This document shows, one piece after another, positions 3,021-64,000 of a stretch of DNA of 64,000 nt (the stretch's first letter is position 1; every line of letters begins with the position of its first letter). The stretch is from Rhododendron vialii (Eukaryota > Streptophyta > Magnoliopsida > Ericales > Ericaceae). A model generated the notes under the pieces. That model searched no databases and had not been told where the DNA came from. It saw nothing but the letters and a program-made list of their open reading frames with translations. The stretch is from the NCBI RefSeq assembly GCF_030253575.1, contig NC_080568.1, positions 6,919,501-6,983,500 of the forward strand, in the 5' to 3' direction. The position numbers were made by a program, and so were the translations under genes.

Positions 3021-5169
<2,149 letters not shown>

Positions 5170-41472: not shown

Positions 41473-42967
<1,495 letters not shown>

Positions 42968-44415: not shown

Positions 44416-45676
<1,261 letters not shown>

Positions 45677-46399
45677 CATGCAGACTTTGAAATGGAAGCA
45701 GAATGGAACTGGGTTGTTCCCTACCGTACCGTTATCCTACGTACGCCACCAAACTATTTTATATCCAATCGATGGGGTTCAAAAGGAAGATCTAAATCGT
45801 TCACCTCATTTGGGGGTTTTGACGGAGGTTTTTGAGAGTAATGAGTGAAGAGATAGATAGATAGAGAGTTTATTGGATACTATGCCCAGGGGATTTGAGT
45901 CCCCCAAACGAACAAGGTCATGTGATTTATCATCTTGATAAAAAATAATAAGTGTATCAAACAATCGTTTAGTGGATATATAGTTAATCTGGTTCTAACT
46001 TAACTCGCCGTCTTTATATGATTGGTTTATATAACTATTGATTTCTGATCAAACTAATTTTCAATTCGGTACCCATGTTCTTGAATGTAAGATCTAGGAA
46101 ATGAACAATTCATGTATTCCTTTTGAACTCGGGATGACACACCAAAAAAATCATTTTTAATGAGATTTGAAGGATAAGGGCAAGGAGGGGAGCTTAACCC
46201 AATGGGACTTGATCCTCATGTTTAAGCGTTTGTGGTCTATTTTGATGAGGTGGAATATCAATCGTCATATGATATAATCCATCTATTTTTTTAACCTATT
46301 AGTTCCCATCCGGCACTTTAATTTATGTTCTAAAATCTAAATATATCGTGGTTAGGATTACTATTTTATCGACATTGCTTTATATATAATCAATATTTG

Positions 46400-48112
46400 A
46401 CGAATAAAAAAAATAAAATTCATCACCTAAATGAGTTCAAAAAAACCTTATAAAAGACTACAACAGGGTGGTTGAATCCCAAAGAGGTGCGAATATCCTT
46501 TTCCTTTTGAAAGGGAGGAAGGCTGAAGTGTGAATCGAGCATTTAGCTCGGAAAGGGGTTAAGTTTACAATGTGATCACCTACTTTTTAAATTTTGTTTA
46601 CTTAGTTCCTCAAATTATAGATAGTGAATTAGGTTATGTTCCGCTAAGTTTCTTATTTTTTAAGTTATTATTTTTCGCTTTACAAGGCATATTATTTTTC
46701 ACAATATATTACTAGAAAACCCTAGCTTGTCTAGGTTTATAAACGATTTGCTATGTTCAATCTCTTAATGAAAATTATCTGCCAACCAATATATAAGCTA
46801 ATCACACAAACGAAAAGCAATAAAAAGACGAACGCAAGGAAATAAGTGGAAACCCGATCAGAAGGGGAAAAAACTACGAGAAAGAATCAAACACTATAAA
46901 CATTGTGTAGTTATAAGTAATCTTATCTTACGATTTGAATCCTCACAATTGAGCCTAAGACATACTTGTCGAATCCATGTTCACCACACCCGGTGCTTGA
47001 CTGCCACTGCCTTGAATCCACAAGCCTTTTATTTGCCTCCCAGAATCCATCGAAGGACTTTGCTCAGAAAGTAAGTTGATGTTGGAAAATTGTATTGAAC
47101 GCTAAATAATCCATCAATCAAAATCCAAGGCAATTAAAGACCCCCTTCAATATTTTCTAAAGTTAGAAAGAGTTTTGGGGCGGCTATATCATATGCGGTC
47201 ACTTCAAACTCTAATAAGCCGCGTATATATAAGCTACGTACTGAAAAATAGACAAGTTGCTCGAGCAATTCCTGTAGCTTGTCCGGCACTTTCTTGAAAC
47301 CTTGATTTCCTTTCCTTTCAAAGTTGCCATACATCGAAACCTTGATTTCCTTTCCTTTCGAAGTTGCTAAATATTAAAACTCTTGATTGCTTTGATTTCT
47401 TCCACTTCAATTTTCTAAAAACTCAACCTCTTAATTAGATAAGATGTGATTTCCTTCTATTTTCTAAACAGACACTTCAGAAATAAATCTATCTAAATTG
47501 TAAAACGGAGCGGTTTTTGTCTACACATACGTACAAACAAAAGCAACTCTCTAGCCGTTAGATCAAATTTTCAATAGGTTATAACTGTTCGATCAAGAGA
47601 ACACTTCTTAATATAAACCTCCTAACCTTATTATGACAAGTAATAATTGTTTTTAGGTTGTTTTCTTAAAAGACTTTATCATTTTTTTGACTTAAATCAA
47701 CTCAATAATTGATTTTCTTCTAATGTTAATTTCCTTACATTCATTTCAATATTTGCTTTTAAATTGTTTCCGTTTAGGTTGATTTCCCAACAGTAAAAAA
47801 GGAAACAATTCTTTTTAATTGGATTTATATTCGAAAAGAAAACAACCATTTTTCTTTTAGGTGTAATCATTGTATGTTCCCTTAAATAGTTGAAATTCCC
47901 AAAAGGGATTCTCAATTTGAAACGGAGGGAGTAATAATTAACATTCACATATGTGCTTCTTCGGAAACCCCTCCCCCCACTCCCCCCCTCTATTTTCAAT
48001 AATAATCTGGGCTATACTTAGGTTTTCCTTTGTAATCATACGTACATACGATTCTTCTAATTCATCAGCCTCTCCACGAAAAGGAGAAATCAGTTTTTGT
48101 TTCATACCTTTA
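46400..48112. other. spacer, no gene recognised
   Basis: 46400-46640 matches the unit that is tandemly duplicated at 53.5-60.7 kb (CCTTATAAAAGACTACAACAG, GAAAGGGAGGAAGGC, TTTGTTTACTTAGTT) and shows it without insertions. The remainder is AT-rich with no protein-like frame. A lone Stowaway-like end (AACGGAGGGAGTA) sits at 47921-47933. Confidence 0.45.
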
Positions 48113-49950: not shown

Positions 49951-52942
<2,992 letters not shown>

Positions 52943-52969: not shown

Positions 52970-53629
52970 ATATGGTTTTGGCTTGGGGAAGAAGATGGTG
53001 CCTTGCTTAACGTAATTGAACACGTCATGACTTTGAAATGGAAGCAGAATATGGAACGGGGTTGTTCCCCACCATACCGTTATCCTACGTACGCCACCAA
53101 ACTATTTTATATCCAATCGATCGGATTGGATCAAAAGAAAGATCTAAATCGTTCACCTCGTAGATCTCCTATTCATGAGTACATATGTGATTTATCATCT
53201 TAATCGAAAACCAATAAGTTAATCAAACAATCGTTTAGTGGATATATAATTAATATGTTTCTGAGCTTAACTCGTCCTCTTTATACGAATGGTTAATATA
53301 ACTATCGGTTGCTGATCAAACTGATTTTTTGATACTCATGTTCTTGAATGCATGACCTAGGAAATGAACAATTCATGTATTCCTATTCAACTCTGGATGA
53401 CACCAAAAAAATCAAGTTTAATGAGATTTGAAAGATAAGGGTACGGAGGGGAGCTTAACCGAATGAGACTTGAACCTCATATTTGCCATTTGTGGTCTAT
53501 CTTGATAAGGTGGAATATCGATCGTCATATGACTACATTTATTTTTGTAACCAATGAGTTCTGATACGGCACTTAAATTTATGTTACAAAAAATAAATAT
53601 ATCGTGGTTATACATCTATCATTATTTTA

Positions 53630-54048
53630 GGGAGCCGTTAATGCCACGACCCTTTTCTTTAAAGCCACGACAAATCAATTCAGCTTCCAATTTTACCCCC
53701 AAGTTGCTTCTCTCCCACTTTTGTACCAGAGATAACTCTCTACACAAGGCGAAAACCCACTTCCATCTCCTCCCTTTCTTCTCCTAGCCTTTGTTTTCAT
53801 GATTTCTTTGATTACATGCATGCTTTTGTTTGTATTTCTAAGACCGAACCAATTTTCGTTGCTAAAATCAAGTGTATTTTACCAATCAACAAATTTCTGG
53901 GTCTATTATATGCTCTGAGTCAAATACAAGAATATGGGTGCAGGTAGGACACTATATCTTGATTCGAAAATTTCTAATATTATGTTCAACGATTTTGTTG
54001 GGTCTGGTCATGAAACAGGAGAAAGTGGATTGGTCTATGCTGTTGCAA

Positions 54049-54108
<60 letters not shown>

Positions 54109-54237
54109 TGGTGAGAGGGGCTACAGAGAAGATAATGAATGTAGAAAATATGAATGGTGGGTTTCAAGGGTAATTTTTGTCGGACAGCGTAAATTGTCGT
54201 GGCACTAAAAAAAGCTGTCGTGGCTTTATCAGTCTCC
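53630..54237. mobile_element. DNA element with 8-bp target duplication, GCCACGAC ends
   Basis: TTATTTTA at 53622-53629 and 54238-54245 flanks it. Ends GGGAGCCGTTAATGCCACGA and the complement of GGAGACTGATAAAGCCACGA are inverted partners. The empty site is visible at 58118-58125. The 608-bp interior has (GA)n at 54053-54106 and no transposase. The 8-bp duplication suggests hAT, but the termini are not the usual CA..TG, so the superfamily is open. Confidence 0.8.
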
Positions 54238-54267
54238 TTATTTTATCGACATTGCTTTATATATGAG

Positions 54268-55507
54268 TGACCGCATCGTTCCGTGTCAAAAATATATTTA
54301 TAAAACTGAGAATTAACTACTACTCTGTAAAATAGTGGTCAAGTCCGAGTATCGTTCCAACGGAGACAGTATGGCTGAGTTACGACAAATTCGATTAATT
54401 TTTAGATTAATTCGGGCAAAGGAAGTTTGGTTGTTTGAATTTGGAGAATTTATTAAATCTAAGACAATAAATTAAATGGAAAGTTTGTAACGATTGGAGA
54501 GAAAATTTAGGGTTCGAATCCACCTCGACCGTGTAACTCCAACATGCATAGGCAAGATTAATTATTCGAATCAGAAGGGATTATTACTAGGGCTTACAAA
54601 TCCTAGCAATAATCATCTAGAAAATAATTGAGTTGTTAAAAGGTATAGATTATCCCATAGCATGGACCGTCTCTAAAGTACGGTCTGGCTGCCTAACGGC
54701 ACGATCCGTCTTACGAGTATAATCTATCTCAGAACTCCAACTACAATCGATGAAAACCATTGTATAACTCGTATTTGAAAGCATGCATATAAATACTCAA
54801 TAGATTAAAACCATCAAAATCATTCTATTCAATTGAAACGGAAAGGGTTTTTAGTTATACAATCGATCCGAATAATAAACCTAAAACCCATACATAAAAA
54901 ATAGAGTTACTTGGTGCGAAGTTTCATATTCACCTTAGAAAAGGGGTTTAGCCAGCTATGGAGAAGAAAGATGCGATTGAGATCGAAAAAGACATGAAAG
55001 ACATGAAAGATTTCCTTGAAATCCTCTTGCCTCTCTCTCTCTAATCGTTGCTGGAAAAGAACGTAATATATTTCCGCTCCTAATAGCTGCTGGGAATAAT
55101 CAAAATGTAACCTACATAATAAGCTCTGGCCTCCTTTTATAGTCTTGGCCCAAAAACAATCAGACTTAAAAATGTAAAGCAGATTTCCGTTTGCAGCGGC
55201 TGCTGTCCGCTGGTCCGGACCAGCAATTACATTGGCCGGACCAGAAAAATAGCTTGTTCATATCGTGCTCCAGTTTTGGTCGTCCGGACCAGCATAGCCT
55301 TGGTCCGGACCAGATTTTCAGCTTTCACCTTTTCGCCGCGGATCCTTCCGGAACGTCCTTAACTCACAATTATTACTCCAAAACTTGTCCGAATGCTCCG
55401 TAAGCCCTAAAACACTACAAACCAATTAAATCTCATTAAATAACATTAGATAGGACTGACAAAACCTAAGTTAATGGGAAAAAATTTGTGCTTTTCAGCA
55501 CCTATCA
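54268..55507 (-). mobile_element. solo LTR, 1240 bp
   Basis: Begins TGACCGCATCG and ends CACCTATCA, with a perfect 5-bp duplication ATGAG at 54263-54267 and 55508-55512. The empty site (TATATGAGCAATATT) remains in copy B at about 58140-58155. No internal region or second LTR is present, so the element was reduced by LTR recombination. Orientation (start TGATAGGTGCTG on the minus strand) is inferred; superfamily not determined, Gypsy-type possible. Confidence 0.8.
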
Positions 55508-55602
55508 ATGAGCAATATTTGACGAATAAAAATAAAATAAAATTCATCTTCTAAATGAGTTCAAAAAGACCTTATAAAATACTGCAACAGGGCAGTCAAA
55601 TC

Positions 55603-56997
55603 CAAAGTTCTGAATACCGTTTCGGACAGAGTATCGGTTTTCTTATTGGTACGGTACGTATCGGTACCAGTCAGGTATCGGGTACCGTTTCGGATTTACC
55701 GCAACTATAATTATATATAATTATAACTCAAATTTTTTTCCGATACCATGTAATTTCTTCTATAATAAATCAATAAATTTCAAGTAATTGACTTTTCCTC
55801 TACCCAACAAACCCATTTCTTCTCTTCCTTTTTTTTATGGAGTAAATCGGAAAATTACTGCACTTGGACCACTTCCATTCCCTTTTACGGAGTAAATCGG
55901 AAAATTACTGCACTTGGACCACTTCCATTCCCAAACCATGTGCTAAAACCACTGGTTTTGTACACAAAAAAATCCATAGCCTTTTTAACTTTCCCCAATC
56001 CAACTAAACACTCACTCTCTCTCTTCTCTCTCTCTCTCTCTCTCCTCAGACAAACGGAAAACCAGATGGAGACCCGCTTGAGTCTTAAAATTTCCATGAT
56101 GCCCCAGTGTGGTATTGGGGTATCATGCCCCCATTTAATATAGACCACTAGATTAGGTTTTAGGTTAATCTGGACCCTTGGATCAAAACCATCTCCTAAA
56201 AGTAAGGTGGTTTTGTGTTTTTTCAACCATTATACTTACCATGAACACTGGCTCTTCTTACCATACTATATGCTGATACTTACCACAAAATAAGACACAC
56301 TTACCACAACTAAAGGCTGTACTTCAACGTTTTTAGGTGTTTTCAAAATAATTTTAGGAGGGAGGGGGATGGATCCAAGGGATACTAGGAGAGAGGGGCA
56401 TGAATCCAAGGGTTGAGATCGAAAGAAGAGATCCAAAAGTGTTTAAAAAAAAATTGAGGGCATGATGCCCCAATACCGCTTTGGGGCATGGTAGCCGGTG
56501 CCCTTGAGTCTTCCTCTCTCTTTTCTCTCTCTCATACTTACAGTCTTACACGGTTACACCGCTCCATTTTCCTTAACCAGTGGGAAGATCTAATTTCGTC
56601 ACCCTTCTCTTTTATTCTAATTTCTCTAAGTGGATTGTATTATGTATTGTTGAGAGGGATTCCAATGGGAAGATCTATGTAAGTAATCACTTCCAGCCAC
56701 AGTCGGATAAGCTGGAGAAGACCACGAGGAGCCTTTTTTTTTTTTTTTTTCTGATTTCCTCTTTTCTCTTTTTTTTCCTTCTATTTCTCCATTTTCTCCA
56801 CTGCCTGGTGTGAAATGGCCCTGTTTTGCAAAATTCCGTCTGGAATCTCCGGTACCTCCATCTCGTCTGAGATCGTCCGGAATCGCCGGTACTCGCCGGT
56901 AATATCCGAGATTAGAGCCGGAACGGTATTTGAGGTATAAGTTACCGGTTTTATGCAAATCCGATACGTACCGGTCGGTACGGGATTAACAACATTG
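55603..56997. mobile_element. hAT-type non-autonomous element, CAAAGTTCTG family, copy 1
   Basis: GTCAAATC at 55595-55602 and 56998-57005 is a perfect 8-bp duplication. Ends CAAAGTTCTGAATACCG and the complement CAATGTTGTTAATCCCG pair imperfectly, with CCGGTACCG-type subterminal repeats. The empty site is in copy B at 58230-58237. It contains a MULE-like insert at 56087-56502, a local 50-bp duplication near 55845-55930 and a (CT)n tract. No transposase. Confidence 0.9.
56087..56502. mobile_element. MULE-like insert nested in the hAT element
   Basis: CTTGAGTCTT at 56077-56086 and 56503-56512 brackets 416 bp that the sister hAT copy (58793-58802, ATTGAGTCTT) lacks. Each end carries a small hairpin-forming GATGCCCCA...TTGGGG motif. 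A 9-10-bp duplication is the size used by Mutator-like elements. Non-coding. Confidence 0.75.
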
Positions 56998-57200
56998 GTC
57001 AAATCTCAAAGAGGAGCGAATATCCTCTTCCTTTTGAAAGGGAGGAAAGGCCGAAGTGCAAATCGAGTCTTAAGCCCGAAAGGGGTTAAAATTTTACCAT
57101 GATAACGTACTATTTAAATTTGAGAACGGGTAGGGTGTACACTTGCATACGATATGCCTATGTAATCTTTATCATTGAGAGACGTAAAATTTACCACTTA

Positions 57201-57439
57201 GGCTCCGTTCCAGAACACCTTCTTAAAAAATAAGTACTTATTTCACATTTTCAAACTCAAAAATAATATAAATGAAAAATTATTTTTTAATTTTTTTTTC
57301 ACCGTATAAGAGATCTCAATGAGATCTATCAAACAAGATCCATATTGATAAGAAAATTATTGACATAAACACATGATTTTTGAGCTTGAAATTGCCTTCT
57401 TAAAAAATAAGTACTTATTTCCGTTTCCGGAACGGGGCC
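57201..57439. mobile_element. PIF/Harbinger MITE, GGCCCCGTTCC family, copy 4
   Basis: TTA at 57198-57200 and 57440-57442; ends GGCTCCGTTCCAGAAC and TTCCGGAACGGGGCC. The empty site is in copy B at about 59340 (ATCACTCAGAGGCAT). It is the shortest and best preserved of the four copies. Confidence 0.9.
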
Positions 57440-58378
57440 TTAGAGGCATAAAAGTTTAGCAATAGGCGTAACACCTGTAGAGAGTGCATATCATATGCAC
57501 TCTTAACTACTGAAAGGCGTAACCATTTCAAACATAGGCGTAGCATTTTTCAAAAGTAGGGGTGTGTATTGAAGGTTTTTTGCATTGGTGGATTAGGAAA
57601 AATGATTGGGACAAAAATTTAAACACAAGTGCGTTCAAAAAATTGTTCGATTTGCATGGGTTCCATTCAAAGTCACATACTCCTTCAGTGGACACAACAT
57701 TCTCGTGCTCGATTCTCACTCTGCGCTTGCAATCTCAATTCTTGCTCTTGCAAATTTTAGTGGTTTAGAATGTTCTTATGAAAGACATTTTCACACCCGC
57801 CCTCTCGCTCTCACTCTTGCACACAAATGCGCGTTATGCGAAATAGGTTCCACATGGATATTGTGGGGAGAAAGGAGAGTGAAGATGGAACAATGGGCCG
57901 GGTTTCAGTTTGCAGAGTGAAATGGAAAGGAGTTTCCGTTAGTATTGAGAAGATGATAAACACGATTAGAATTTTCCCCCTTTTCCGTTTGAAATGATCA
58001 ATCAAATCCCACATAATTAGACAACTACGCACATTTATTTTTGTAACCAATGAGTTCTGATCCGGCACTTTAATTTATGTTATAAAAAATAAATATATCG
58101 TGGTTATACATCTATCATTATTTTATTGACATTGTTTTATATATGAGCAATATTTGACGAATAAAAATAAAATAAAATTCATCTTCTATATGAGTTCAAA
58201 AAGACCTTATAAAATACTGCAACAGGGCGGTCAAATCTCAAAGAGGAGCAAATATCCTCTTCCTTTTGAAAGGGAGGAAGGCCGAAGTGCGAATCGAGTG
58301 TTAAGCCCGGAAGGGGTTAATTTTACTGTGAAAACCTACTATTAAAATTTGAGAATGGGTTGGGTGTACACTTGCGTA

Positions 58379-59288
58379 CAAAGTTCTGAATACCGTTTCG
58401 GACAGAGTACCGGTTTTCTTATTGGTACGGTACGTACCGGTACCAGTCAGGTACCGGGAACCGTTTCGGATTTACCGCAACTATAATTATATATAAGTAT
58501 AACTCAAATTTTTTTTCGATACCATGCAATTTCTTCTATAATAAATCAATAAATTTCAAGTAATTGACTTTTCCTCTTCCCAACAAACCCATTTCTTCTC
58601 TTCCTTTTTTTTAAATCGGAAAATTACTGCACTTGGACCACTTCCATTCCCAAACCATGTGCTAAAACCACTGATTTTGTACACATAAAAAAATCCACAG
58701 CTTTTTAACTTTTCCCAATCCAACTAAACACTCACTCTCTCTTCTCTCTCTCTCTCTCTCCTCAGACAAACGGAAAACTAGATGAAGACCCGATTGAGTC
58801 TTCCTCTCTCTTTTCTCTCTCTCATACTTACAGTCTTACACGGTTACACCACTCCATTTTCCTTAACCAGTGGGAAGATCTAATTTCATCACCCTTCTCT
58901 TTTATTCTAATTTCTCTAAGTGGGTTGTATTATGTATTGTTGAGAGGGATTCCAATGGGAAGATCTATGTAAGTAATCACTTCCAGTCACGGTCGGATAA
59001 ACAGGAGAAGACCATGAGGAGCCACTTTTTTTTTTCCGATTTCCTCTTTTCTCTTTTTTTTTCTTTCTATTTCTCCATTTTCTCCACTGCCTGGTGTGAA
59101 ATGGCCCTGTTTTGCAAAATTTCGGCCGGAATCTCCGGTACCTCCATCTCGTCCGAGATCGTCCGGAATCGCCGGTACTCGCCGGTAATATCCGAGATTA
59201 GAGCCGGAATGGTATTTGAGGTATAAGTTACCAGTTTTACGCAAATCCGATACGTACTGGCCGGTACGGTACGGGATTAACAACATTG
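58379..59288. mobile_element. hAT-type non-autonomous element, CAAAGTTCTG family, copy 2
   Basis: Perfect 8-bp duplication CTTGCGTA at 58371-58378 and 59289-59296. The empty site is CTTGCATA at 57142-57149 in copy A. It is 910 bp, shorter than copy 1 because it lacks the nested insert and a local duplication. Since its insertion site differs, this is an independent transposition and not a by-product of the tandem duplication. Confidence 0.92.
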
Positions 59289-59752
59289 CTTGCGTATGAT
59301 ATGCACCTGTAACCTTTATCATTGAGAAGCGTAACATTTATCACTCAGAGGCATAAAAATTTACCAATAGGCGTAACACCTGTCATATGCACTCCTAACC
59401 ACTGAGAGGCGTAACATTTTCAAATATAGGCGCAACATTTTTCAAACGTAGGGGGTGTGTATTGGAGATTTTCTCTTTAAATTTTGTTTACTTAGTTTTC
59501 CAAAAATTATAGGTAGTGAATTAATTAAACGAGGATGAAGAAACTTGTTAACTCTTTCTACTCAAAAGAAAAAAAAATTGAAAAAAATGATTGGGACACA
59601 AATGCGTTCAAAAAATTGTTCGATTTGCATGGGTTCCATACAGAGTCACATACTTCTTCAGTGTACACAACATTCTCGCGCTCGATTCTCACTTTGTGCT
59701 TGCACTCTCAATTTCCGCTCTTGTAAATTTTAGTTGTTTGGAATGTTTTTAT

Positions 59753-60452
59753 TGTTGGATTTTTTCCCATAAAAATAGGCCCAATATAATTTTGTTTCGC
59801 CAAAAAGACTAATGTGTGGGCTAGTTTTTTTGGTGGAATATTCTACACAACTTGGCACATGTTTGGCACATGTGTGTGGGTGTCTAACTTAACTTCTCTT
59901 GGAAGCAAATAAGTTTTTTGTCTCCTGGAAAAAAGCAGAGAGAGCGAGAGCGAGCGAGCGAGAGAGAGAGAGAGAGAGAGAGCGGAAGAATAGAAAAGAG
60001 AGAAAAAGGTGTGTGCGCGCTTTCAGTGGAGAAGTGAAAAATCGTGAGTGTGCTACGGTGACTTAAGGAGAAGGCTTGGGGCAGCCATCTTTCTTCTCTG
60101 TTGAAGCAGATTTGGAACAGCTACTTCAGGCTCATTTGGGGCAGATTTGTTCTCGGTTTCGGGCTCCAAATTCAGCTGCTTTTGGAGGGTTTGAAAGCAC
60201 TAGTTTGGTGAGATCTTTCCACTATTTTGTTGTATTTGGTTGGATGCATTTAGAGTGTGTGTGATCTCTTGGAAACCCATTTGTAATTATTGGTGATAGT
60301 GGAAATTGCTTTCTCTCTCCTGTATATGTATCCGAATTTGAGTAATCACGTATATTGGCTGTTATCATTGTGCCTTGTTTATTGTGTGTGTTAATTTTTC
60401 TGACTACGCTTCCGTTTGCGTGTAGGATTGTTTAGGGGGAATAATCCCAACA
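59753..60452 (+). mobile_element. solo LTR, 700 bp
   Basis: Starts TGTTGGATTTTTTCCC and ends AATAATCCCAACA. The 5-bp flanks are TTTAT (59748-59752) and CTTAT (60453-60457), and the empty site in copy A at about 57774-57778 is CTTAT. A purine-rich (GAGC)n/(GA)n tract lies at 59938-59982. No internal coding region; family not determined. Confidence 0.85.
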
Positions 60453-60740
60453 CTTATGAAAGACATTTTCACACCCGCCCTCTCGCTTTCACTCTCGCAT
60501 ACAAATGCGTATTATGCGACATAGGCCTTGACAATTTTTTTAGGGGCTTTTTGGCGGTGATAGGTTCCCCGTGCATATTGTGGGGGGAAAAGAGAGTGAA
60601 GATGGAACAATGGGCTGGGTTTCAGTTTGCCGAGTGAATGGAAAGGAGTTTCCGTTAGTTTTGAGAAGAAGATAAACACTATTAGAATTTCCTCCCTTTT
60701 CCGTTTGAAATGATCAATCAAATCCCACATAATTAGACAG

Positions 60741-61309
60741 TTACATGTACATAGATCATACAAGTCAAAAGGATGGCAACATCAAAAACATTACCGGCTG
60801 TCAAAAAGACGGGAATTGTAACCACCCTCGAGCTAACCTGCTAACCCTGACCCTTAGTCTAATCACGTGTCTCAAAAGATTAATCTTGAGTTATATAGTA
60901 GCTGGTCGGAATCACTTATATACCAATTATACTTTCCTTTTTTGGCCGATATGAGACTGAGTTGGGTGTCAGAATCTTCCCACCTTTTGATGCAATAACC
61001 TTGTTACATTGGCCCAGCAACCTTTCCCTGGTGGTCATGATGTAACATTTAGTTTTGTATATAGCACATCCTTGTGCTTGTACTAGATTCTAGAGGTGCC
61101 TCTCACCATGTAAACCAGGGTTATATGCTCTGATATTAATTGTAACGATCTCGCTCCCGTCTTGTACAATATGATCATACAGGGCGGGAGCGGGTCGATA
61201 CAGGAATGACTATTCAATGGCACGGGTTATTGTCAAGCGGCGTCCAAACTTTTTCTTTATTTTTTTTGCTCGGCAACTTTTTCTTTATTACGAATTCGTA
61301 TAGCCTCCG
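60741..61309. other. spacer, no gene recognised
   Basis: No protein-like frame. The wording around 61100-61200 (TGATATTAATTGTAACGATCTC, in parts) resembles LTR-element ends, but no pair of repeats or target duplication could be found. Confidence 0.35.
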
Positions 61310-62121
61310 CACACTTAATAGCGGGAATTACACATTCTTATGATGAATAGAGGTGTTAGTGCACCAGGTGACAAGGCGTGTGGGGCTGGCAACGTGCATT
61401 TATATGTTCTGCAGCAACATTTACAGGGATTACAAGGTACCCGAGCAACAATCCAATGAGCTGATTTCTAACGGGTTAGAAATCAGCTCATTAAATCTGC
61501 TAACTTCAGTTCGGGTGACGAATCCAGTTCAAATCCAACCCTAGAACGACCGCCTGGATTCTCTGCTGTGAACAATCCTACCTAGCTACAAGGATTACCT
61601 CTCCTTATGGATGACCAATTTTCAGACTACTCAAGCTTTGATCTAGTACATAACTTAATAGCAAAACCTGGAAACAACATTGTCGCAAAAACTCACGGAA
61701 AAGACTACAATACACACCCCTTATTTTGGTGTGTATCATATGTATCCTCAAAAATGTTATGAATTATAAAGAAAATGTTACGAATCGTATTACTAAAAAG
61801 TTACGAACGTATAAAGGTTACGAGATACACCAATATGTTATGAATCATAATGAAAATGTTACGAATCGTATTGTTGAAAGGTTATGAATTATAGAACAAA
61901 AGTTACGAAACACACTAAAATTTTATGAATGAATAATAAAATAGGTGCATATGGAACACCATTTTAAGGGGCGTATATTGTAAACTTTCCCAAAACTCTA
62001 AAACAACAAAAAGCAAAAACTACTCCAAAAACTGCTACAAACAAGAACAGTTATTGAATAACAAAACTCAGAAGACCATCTTGAGTAGCCCAATTTTATT
62101 TGAGTTGGTGACAACCGAAAA
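61310..62121. other. downstream flank of the partial GSTU
   Basis: 61310-61690 matches 7235-8035 and in part 49500-49740. A TTATGAATCATAATGAAAATG-type stretch (about 61740-61930) with repeated GTTACGAAT words follows and is absent from the other copies, so it may be a small insertion. Confidence 0.5.
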
Positions 62122-64000
62122 TTATTGAGCGTTGGCTCCAGCAGCAAACTTCTTGATTACCTTCACAAACACTTCTGTTTTTGGAATAATATCCTTCACA
62201 GCAGCATTCGAACGAAACATCTTGGCCCATTCGAACAGACCAGGGGTCTTGGTTTCGTCGAGCATCTTTACATTGGCAATCACTTCGATCCCACTTATCC
62301 ACCCCAAGAAGCTGCCGAAGGCTATATCAAGGTATCCAATGGTGTCACCGCCGAAGAAGTCTTTTCCCTTGCTACATTTGGCGAAAGCATCCTCCAATGG
62401 CATGAGCCCTTCAATAACTTTCTCTAGTGCTGGTGCTTGTGCCTCCTCTCCCACTGCGTTACGAAGCACCATAATTGTTGGCCACCACTGCGCAATCATG
62501 TACAGTACAATACGATCATTGTGTACTGTGAAAAAATTCCTTTACAAAATATAACTTTCATAAACAAGCTCATCTGTCGCGTAGTGAAGGTGAAACTTAA
62601 GACGCAGAATTTAGCGTAATCAAATTCCTATACCTCTTATAACCTATTTGAATCAATATTCGATCAACCTTGTTAATAGGTTTTCAAAAAATCTATACAA
62701 ACTTTTAAACTAGTAAAGAAGATAGGGCATCTTTAAATGTGACAACCAAAAAAACTTGGGTAAATTTCACTAATTTTTTGGGTAAATTTCACTAACCTCC
62801 CTTGAGCCTTGAGGGTTCTGAAAGATGCAGGGACTTCCCCCCTCAGGTTCTTAAAATTATATTGCCCTCTCTTACTTTACATAGCAATTTATGGATAGTA
62901 ATTTTTTTTCCAATTTTCCATGAAAAGAAAATTGTCAATGAAGCCTACAAGATAAGCGTTTCAAATTATCTTAAGTTGTGGTGTTGGTATGCATCTTAAA
63001 AATAAAAAAGTGTTGAGGTTTGAATGATCGAGAGACCATGGACATGCTTCAGATGAAATTTGGTTTATAAGTCATACTGCTTATCCAGTAATTTCGTAAA
63101 ATTTAATTTGAGCCATGGGCTCATAGTTTTATCTTGTAATTAACTATTTTCGTTGGATAATTAATATTCACTACACTGAGCTAGCTTTGGCGTATGAATT
63201 TGAATAACTATTGTTCAGTTACAATAATTTTGTGAACAATTTTCAATGTTTTAAAGACCAGTAAGCCTTAGTCTTTTTGGACAAAATTTTTAGTGGCTTT
63301 TTGGCACAATCTTTTTAATTGTTTGATCTTAATTTTTACAAGCTTCTGGTTAGAATTTTACATCTTTTTTAGTTTAGACTAGAGGAATCAAAAATAAAAA
63401 AAAATATAGACCAAAGATTGAAAAAATTCACATAAGACGATGGAAAGATCCAAAGTTTTCATTGTCTTATATGGTTTTTTTTCAACTTTGGTCTATGCTT
63501 TTATATTTTTCCGATTTCTCTCATTGAGACTAAAAAAGATAATGTAAAAATCTAACCCGAATAAAAATTAAGAAAAAATAACCAAAGATAAAGAGCTCAC
63601 AAGTCAGTCACTGGCATTAACCCATGGATTTGGGTGGTGACAGAAGGATTTCTCAATCATAAATTTCAAAACTCAATAATTAACCGATCTCCAATTAGTT
63701 AAAGTGTGCATGCATGAAATCATTACAACACCTGTTTATTTCCAAAAAGAAAAGGATCCAGAGAAGTCTCTGCAGTCTCATCTTGTCTATTTATTTTAGC
63801 TATCAATAGTTTAGATTTTAAAAAACTTTTTTTTTCACGAGCGAGGAGAGAATAATTTCTTCCCGCAAAGAGTCTTTCAAAAAATCTATTCATTAAAAAC
63901 ACTTTAGTTTTTTTTTTGTCATTCATTAATCCTAAGCTACACTATTCTAGGGGACTTGGGAGAGGGGAATGGTGCTTACAGAGATCGAACCCTGCTCAAG
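62122..64000 (-). CDS. GSTU: GSTU gene, 3' part (exon 2 plus intron; exon 1 off the window)
   Basis: Exon 2 (62487-62122) is open from the acceptor TGCGCAG|TGGTGGCC to TAA. It encodes 121 residues including AFAKCSKGKDFFGG, DTIGYLDIAFGSFLGW and the C-terminus KFAAGANAQ, very like exon 2 of the gene at 49951. The intron (62488 to beyond 64000) matches that gene's intron by eye up to the right edge (for example GATCGAGAGACC, TTAACCCATGGATTTGGGTGG), so exon 1 should lie shortly beyond. Nothing visible is broken. Confidence 0.85.

Follow-up and report, generated by a model that had tools for sequence, protein, structure and literature searches.

The 64,000-nucleotide stretch of Rhododendron vialii DNA analyzed herein (positions 6919501-6983500 of contig NC_080568.1, denoted C12, and referred to throughout as the window) comes from a genome of 532.6 Mb in 13 contigs and contains a cluster of glutathione S-transferase (GST) genes, next to one of which a unit of roughly 1 kb occurs twice in tandem. 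As both copies are interrupted by transposable elements, the locus raises the question of whether these elements arrived after the duplication, such that each copy displays the uninterrupted target of the insertions found in the other. A sequence-only reading had proposed precisely this, namely, two ~1-kb copies that serve as mutual empty-site controls for seven insertions, all of them younger than the duplication. The history favored by the present analysis, with a probability of about 0.93, comprises seven independent insertions into the two copies (A and B) after the tandem duplication and an older insertion before it. The copies and the seven elements are as follows.

53535-58030, plus strand: copy A of the tandemly duplicated unit, 990 bp once its insertions are excluded
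58031-60744, plus strand: copy B of the tandemly duplicated unit, 1091 bp once its insertions are excluded
46279-46631, plus strand: copy C, an outgroup to A and B, with no insertion at the sites of E1, LTR_A, hAT_A and an older miniature inverted-repeat transposable element (MITE)
53630-54237: E1, a non-autonomous element of 608 bp classed as Mutator-like, with the 8-bp target site duplication (TSD) TTATTTTA/TTATTTTA
54268-55507: LTR_A, a solo long terminal repeat (LTR) of 1240 bp, TG...CA, TSD ATGAG/ATGAG, empty in copies B, C and D
55603-56997: hAT_A, a non-autonomous hAT element of 1395 bp including a nested insert, TSD GTCAAATC/GTCAAATC
56087-56503: Mutator-like element (MULE)-like MITE of 417 bp nested in hAT_A, 9-bp TSD TTGAGTCTT/TTGAGTCTT
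57201-57439: PIF/Harbinger-type MITE of 239 bp, TSD TTA/TTA
58379-59288: hAT_B, 910 bp, of the same subfamily as hAT_A and at a different site, TSD CTTGCGTA/CTTGCGTA
59753-60452: LTR_B, a solo LTR of 700 bp, TGTTGG...CCAACA, TSD TTTAT/CTTAT with one mismatch

Two tandem copies as empty-site controls

Copies A and B directly adjoin one another in a single orientation, and copy A starts about 0.6 kb upstream of an open reading frame (ORF) that carries GST exon 1 (52502-52942, minus strand). The sequence-only reading had recognized this tandem pair, as well as the value of copy C as an empty control, although its limits required adjustment: the pair starts at 53535 rather than 53545, ends at 60744 rather than 60740, and is divided at 58030/58031 rather than 58028/58029, whereas copy C occupies 46279-46631 rather than 46400-46640. 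Once the seven insertions are removed, A and B are 90.3% identical over 971 aligned bases, which corresponds to a Kimura two-parameter (K2P) distance of 0.105 ± 0.011. A fourth copy, D, is located just past the window end (L009:2790-3106, equivalent to C12:6984290-6984606), beyond the reach of the sequence-only reading. Over the 5' third common to all copies, the A-B distance (0.052) is lower than that of A or B to D (0.090-0.101) or to C (0.150-0.162), which makes A and B sisters to the exclusion of C and D. A query with the 5' third of B matched 10 listed places, all of them on C12 within a 35-kb span (6963077-6997766; 9 of the 9 first-look candidates scored). At the A/B junction, a few bases of microhomology at most and two extra bases are seen, from which no mechanism is drawn.

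The edges and target duplications were determined with a script, and each element was excised with one target copy retained, followed by comparison of the join (22-25 bp of flank per side) with the sister copy. All seven joins are gap-free and colinear with the sister, with identities of 45/47 (E1), 45/47 (LTR_A), 48/50 (hAT_A), 47/50 (nested MULE), 43/50 (PIF), 42/50 (hAT_B) and 47/50 (LTR_B); six of the seven target duplications are exact, and that of LTR_B contains one mismatch. The targets of hAT_B and LTR_B can be read in copy A as CTTGCATA, one base off CTTGCGTA, and as CTTAT, respectively, and that of the PIF MITE in copy B as TCA, one base off TTA. Moreover, none of copies B, C and D has an insertion at the site of E1, LTR_A or hAT_A, the three sites that both outgroups cover; the E1 join matches C at 36/41 and D at 45/47 with one gap each, and the LTR_A join has two gaps relative to D. 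Likewise, the site of the nested MULE is empty in four sister hAT elements, namely, hAT_B and the relatives L003 (42/50, one gap), L004 (49/50) and L005 (47/49), and that of the PIF MITE is empty in the sister copy and in two members of its host MITE family, L025 (two gaps) and L033 (one gap). Both the reciprocal use of the copies as controls and the seven insertions with readable edges and duplications are thus borne out.

The likelihood of obtaining such target duplications by chance was estimated from same-length random placements in the window (200,000 in exact register and 20,000 that allowed each edge 2 bp of freedom). In exact register, the values range from 4e-5 to 7e-5 for the four 8-9-bp TSDs and amount to 0.0017 for ATGAG, 0.019 for TTA and 0.021 for TTTAT/CTTAT; with free edges, they become 2.5e-4 to 8e-4 for the four 8-9-bp TSDs, 0.32 for TTA and 0.28 for TTTAT/CTTAT. 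Given these latter values, the PIF and LTR_B cases stand on their termini, family and empty site and not on the TSD alone.

Classes and relatives of the inserted elements

Mutator-like elements generate TSDs of 8-11 bp, usually 9 bp. E1, which the sequence-only reading had correctly described as an insertion with an 8-bp TSD and left unclassified, is now assignable to this class because 9-bp TSDs flank three of the five relatives in which both ends were read: L035, a full-length relative at 87% identity (TTAATAAAA), L043 (TTTTAAAAC) and L044 (TAGAAATAT). A further relative at a C4 locus (L038-L041, L045) has a TSD of about 8 bp, and L046 is the fifth; the matched places outside these five cover one end or parts of the element, and C1:44644213-44645085 was not counted among them. 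The MITE nested in hAT_A, with its 9-bp TSD, agrees with the Mutator-like pattern as well.

Both hAT_A and hAT_B exhibit the 8-bp TSD and short, CA-starting terminal inverted repeat (TIR) of the hAT superfamily, the repeat being CAAAGTTCTGAATACC / CAATGTTGTTAATCCC as read by eye. They differ in a short internal stretch:

55833-55932: 50-bp tandem duplication in hAT_A, two copies, single in hAT_B

Perfect 8-bp TSDs also flank the full-length relatives at other loci (L003, CTCTCTAC; L004, CTATTAAC; L005, GTTTTATC), and a more distant relative, L060, has the 8-bp TSD GAGAGTAC; TSD scoring excluded L007, L008 and other distant relatives, whose aligned ends differ. The close subfamily comprises at least five full-length copies (hAT_A, hAT_B, L003, L004 and L005) and the partial L006 (316 bp), a lower bound given that scoring covered 40 of the 883 first-look candidates. 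Relative to hAT_B, L003-L006 are 93.8-97.2% identical and hAT_A is identical at 96.1% of aligned bases; among the five full-length copies, K2P distances span 0.030-0.053, with 0.040 between hAT_A and hAT_B. A tree built without L006 is star-like, with support of 27-56 among the five (200 bootstraps). Ten more places, which account for 15 of the 37 remaining entries and include L060, either show greater divergence or have partial matches only, and the other 22 entries (matches of ~120-180 bp) fall outside this comparison.

Each of the two solo LTRs has TG...CA ends and a 5-bp TSD (with one mismatch in LTR_B), and paired LTRs of the LTR_B family are found elsewhere. For this family, 59 matches were listed, with scores for 40 of 395 candidates. 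Five same-strand pairs among these matches have starts 2.2-2.9 kb apart, and a further pair on C12 is separated by 10.7 kb. The five pairs start at the following positions.

C11:25377521 and 25380432
C12:9713198 and 9715525
C13:12538177 and 12540361
C13:34117288 and 34119551
C3:1842654 and 1844933

Where the spacing is 2.2-2.3 kb, a short LTR element whose interior measures roughly 1.6 kb would fit.

The PIF MITE carries the TTA TSD and GGCC-type terminal repeats expected of its class, with ends that read GGCTCCGTTCC...GGAACGGGGCC, and a full-length relative flanked by TTA/TTA is located within the window at 1992-2237 on the minus strand. Separately, the match of copy C to B stops at GTGAATTA (46625-46660) and continues with GGTTATGTTCCGC, which resembles the start of a PIF-type MITE inserted in C.

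Older shared changes and alternative histories

The A/B differences are not limited to the seven insertions. The sequence-only reading had overlooked a deletion in A and a 34-bp filler in B, as well as an older MITE.

57122-57590: older, putatively MULE-like MITE in copy A, host of the PIF MITE, its right edge lost in the deletion and its end approximate
58351-59475: the same older, putatively MULE-like MITE in copy B, interrupted by hAT_B and 207 bp long when hAT_B is left out, flanks TTAAAATTT/TTTAAATTT
60526-60559: 34-bp filler insertion in copy B, between ATAGG/ATAGG, absent from A

Copy C passes from CTTTTTAAATTT directly into TGTTTACTTAG, with the target TTTAAATTT present once, whereas a stretch starting with GAGAA follows TTTAAATTT in A and TTAAAATTT in B; in B, this stretch ends with TTCTC and is succeeded by a second TTTAAATTT and TGTTTACTTAG, such that the TSD TTTAAATTT has one mismatch in B's left copy. 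We read this arrangement as an eighth, older MITE insertion that is common to A and B and absent from C. Short matches to the older MITE occur on 12 of the 13 contigs, with scores for 40 of 43 candidates and a comparison of nine loci, and both the PIF MITE of A and hAT_B of B are nested within it. At its 3' edge, the matched parts are separated by 123 bp in B (59473-59595) versus 43 bp in A (57580-57622), and this net difference of ~80 bp is, at least mostly, a deletion in A, since C (46583-46631) shares the part that B has kept. Part of the 34-bp insertion in B resembles 63280-63305 (26 bp, 88%, E 1e-4), and the insertion is possibly a templated filler of break repair.

The stretch at 61686-61990 resembles the older MITE at its ends (CAATACACACCCC) and has internal repeats of ~21 bp; no clean TSD was seen there by eye. 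In the 3' part of the unit, 59674-59752 has short matches on 7 of the 13 contigs, and the unit probably holds another old repeat.

Built upon edges, target duplications, empty sites and copy relationships that were observed directly, the proposed history would begin with the entry of a putative Mutator-like MITE into a stretch of ~1 kb that lies upstream of one gene of a plant GST cluster, and this MITE-bearing stretch would then have been duplicated in tandem. Copy A would have gained the MULE-like E1, an LTR element, a hAT and a PIF MITE, with hAT_A later becoming the target of a MULE-like MITE, and copy B would have gained a second hAT of the same subfamily and a different LTR element. The DNA transposons, all non-autonomous, would have entered by cut-and-paste, each with a class-specific target duplication and through transposases whose action we infer; the LTR retrotransposons would later have become solo LTRs, most simply via recombination between their own two LTRs. 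That the insertions postdate the duplication, as claimed by the sequence-only reading, is supported by the empty copies (B, C and D for E1, LTR_A and hAT_A); the A-B distance, lower than those to C and D, and the hAT_A-hAT_B distance of 0.040 fit this order without proving it.

Several points weigh against this history. The sites of hAT_B and LTR_B have a single empty control each, copy A; the TSDs of the PIF MITE (TTA) and LTR_B (TTTAT/CTTAT) are individually weak; and the chance value of ATGAG rises to 0.034 when the edges are free by 2 bp. Within the window, no second copy of LTR_A or of the nested MULE was found, and one E1 relative with both ends read, L046, has no clear TSD. For the older MITE, no TIR beyond those of shuffled sequences was detected (121 of 300 shuffles as good or better), and C is its sole empty control, as copy D stops at the MITE site. 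Divergence between A and B is also uneven along the unit (K2P 0.052 for the 5' third, 0.152 for the MITE and 0.094 for the 3' part), which leaves the age of the duplication uncertain; gene conversion of one part of the unit is conceivable.

This unevenness lends itself to a history in which some elements predate the duplication and were later lost from one copy, either through precise excision of a DNA transposon or through conversion from an empty copy, considering that excision is possible for hAT, MULE and PIF elements, as is conversion between tandem copies. Such losses are nevertheless very improbable: the E1, LTR_A and hAT_A sites are empty in three copies (B, C and D), which already renders presence before the duplication unlikely for three of the seven; loss of either LTR would require the precise removal of the LTR together with one TSD; and none of the seven joins has a gap relative to the sister, although hAT excision usually leaves a footprint. 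The converse proposal, that one copy lost sequence at the gaps and the other gained none, has one genuine counterpart in the ~80-bp net deletion at the MITE 3' edge of A. At the seven gaps, by contrast, class-specific target duplications are accompanied by empty sisters (and for three by empty outgroups too), and relatives of the hAT elements, E1 and the PIF MITE have TSDs of their own elsewhere, so that deletion retains a negligible probability; it was rejected there on the target duplications and gap-free joins, and the deletions without target duplications that would have spoken against the sequence-only reading were not encountered.

A different issue is whether hAT_B arose as a local hop of hAT_A, or vice versa, as parent and offspring. 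Local transposition is known for hAT elements, and the starts of the two lie 2776 bp apart, even though at least five full-length and one partial close copies exist in 532.6 Mb; for six copies inserted uniformly, ~0.00016 pairs within 2776 bp would be expected, a figure that serves as a pointer only, the pair having been noticed before the test. Descent of one from the other is still rather unlikely, as the two are not nearest relatives (K2P 0.040, compared with 0.030 for hAT_B-L003 and 0.031 for L003-L004), tree support among the five is only 27-56, and the single derived state exclusive to hAT_A and hAT_B equals that of each of five other pairs. The distances, tree and shared derived states do not support hAT_B as direct offspring of hAT_A and instead mark both as members of one small recent burst, not demonstrably parent and child. 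The independent entry of two members of a very small, recently active subfamily into both unit copies would hint at a hotspot for local insertion, or else at local hopping, at the duplicated GST promoters, a tentative reading with the odds against it.

Genomic setting and significance

All six ORFs tried in the window contain GST N- or C-terminal domains (Pfam).

3021-3383: GST-domain ORF
4666-5169: GST-domain ORF
42527-42967: GST-domain ORF
49951-50370: GST-domain ORF
52502-52942, minus strand: GST-domain ORF with GST exon 1 (GST_N)
62122-62541: GST-domain ORF

Beside copy C, 45479-45674 partially matches GST exon 1 and is probably a pseudogene fragment; past the window end, L009:6209-7774 holds another GST copy and the region upstream of it, with an interruption between 7367 and 7694.

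Related-empty-site (RESite) checks have been used for MITEs and other elements. The present approach is alike in that a paralogous uninterrupted copy serves to read edges and target duplications, and it differs in that the paralogue adjoins the interrupted copy in tandem and that several element classes lie within one 7-kb stretch. The term itself occurs in PMC3626606, among other papers. Plant non-autonomous hAT, Mutator-like and PIF/Harbinger MITEs have 8-bp, 9-bp and TTA TSDs, respectively, and short TIRs; the elements described here are the same in kind, with no difference seen. The maize P1-wr / p1-p2 cluster consists of eleven 12-kb gene repeats with large retrotransposons, and a solo LTR with identical TSDs there was explained by intra-element recombination, the reading also favored here (PMC2686159). 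The two loci share tandem copies, nested insertions whose order in time can be established and solo LTRs, whereas the units here are two 1-kb upstream stretches with mostly small non-autonomous elements.

All components are thus of known kinds, and no departure from known transposon behavior was seen; the entry of a single small hAT subfamily into both copies adds modestly to this. The view of how these elements work is unchanged, and the locus records ordinary genome history. In summary, it yields insertion edges and relative ages of non-autonomous elements without recourse to a second species, which aids annotation, and illustrates how elements build up upstream of a tandem GST gene.

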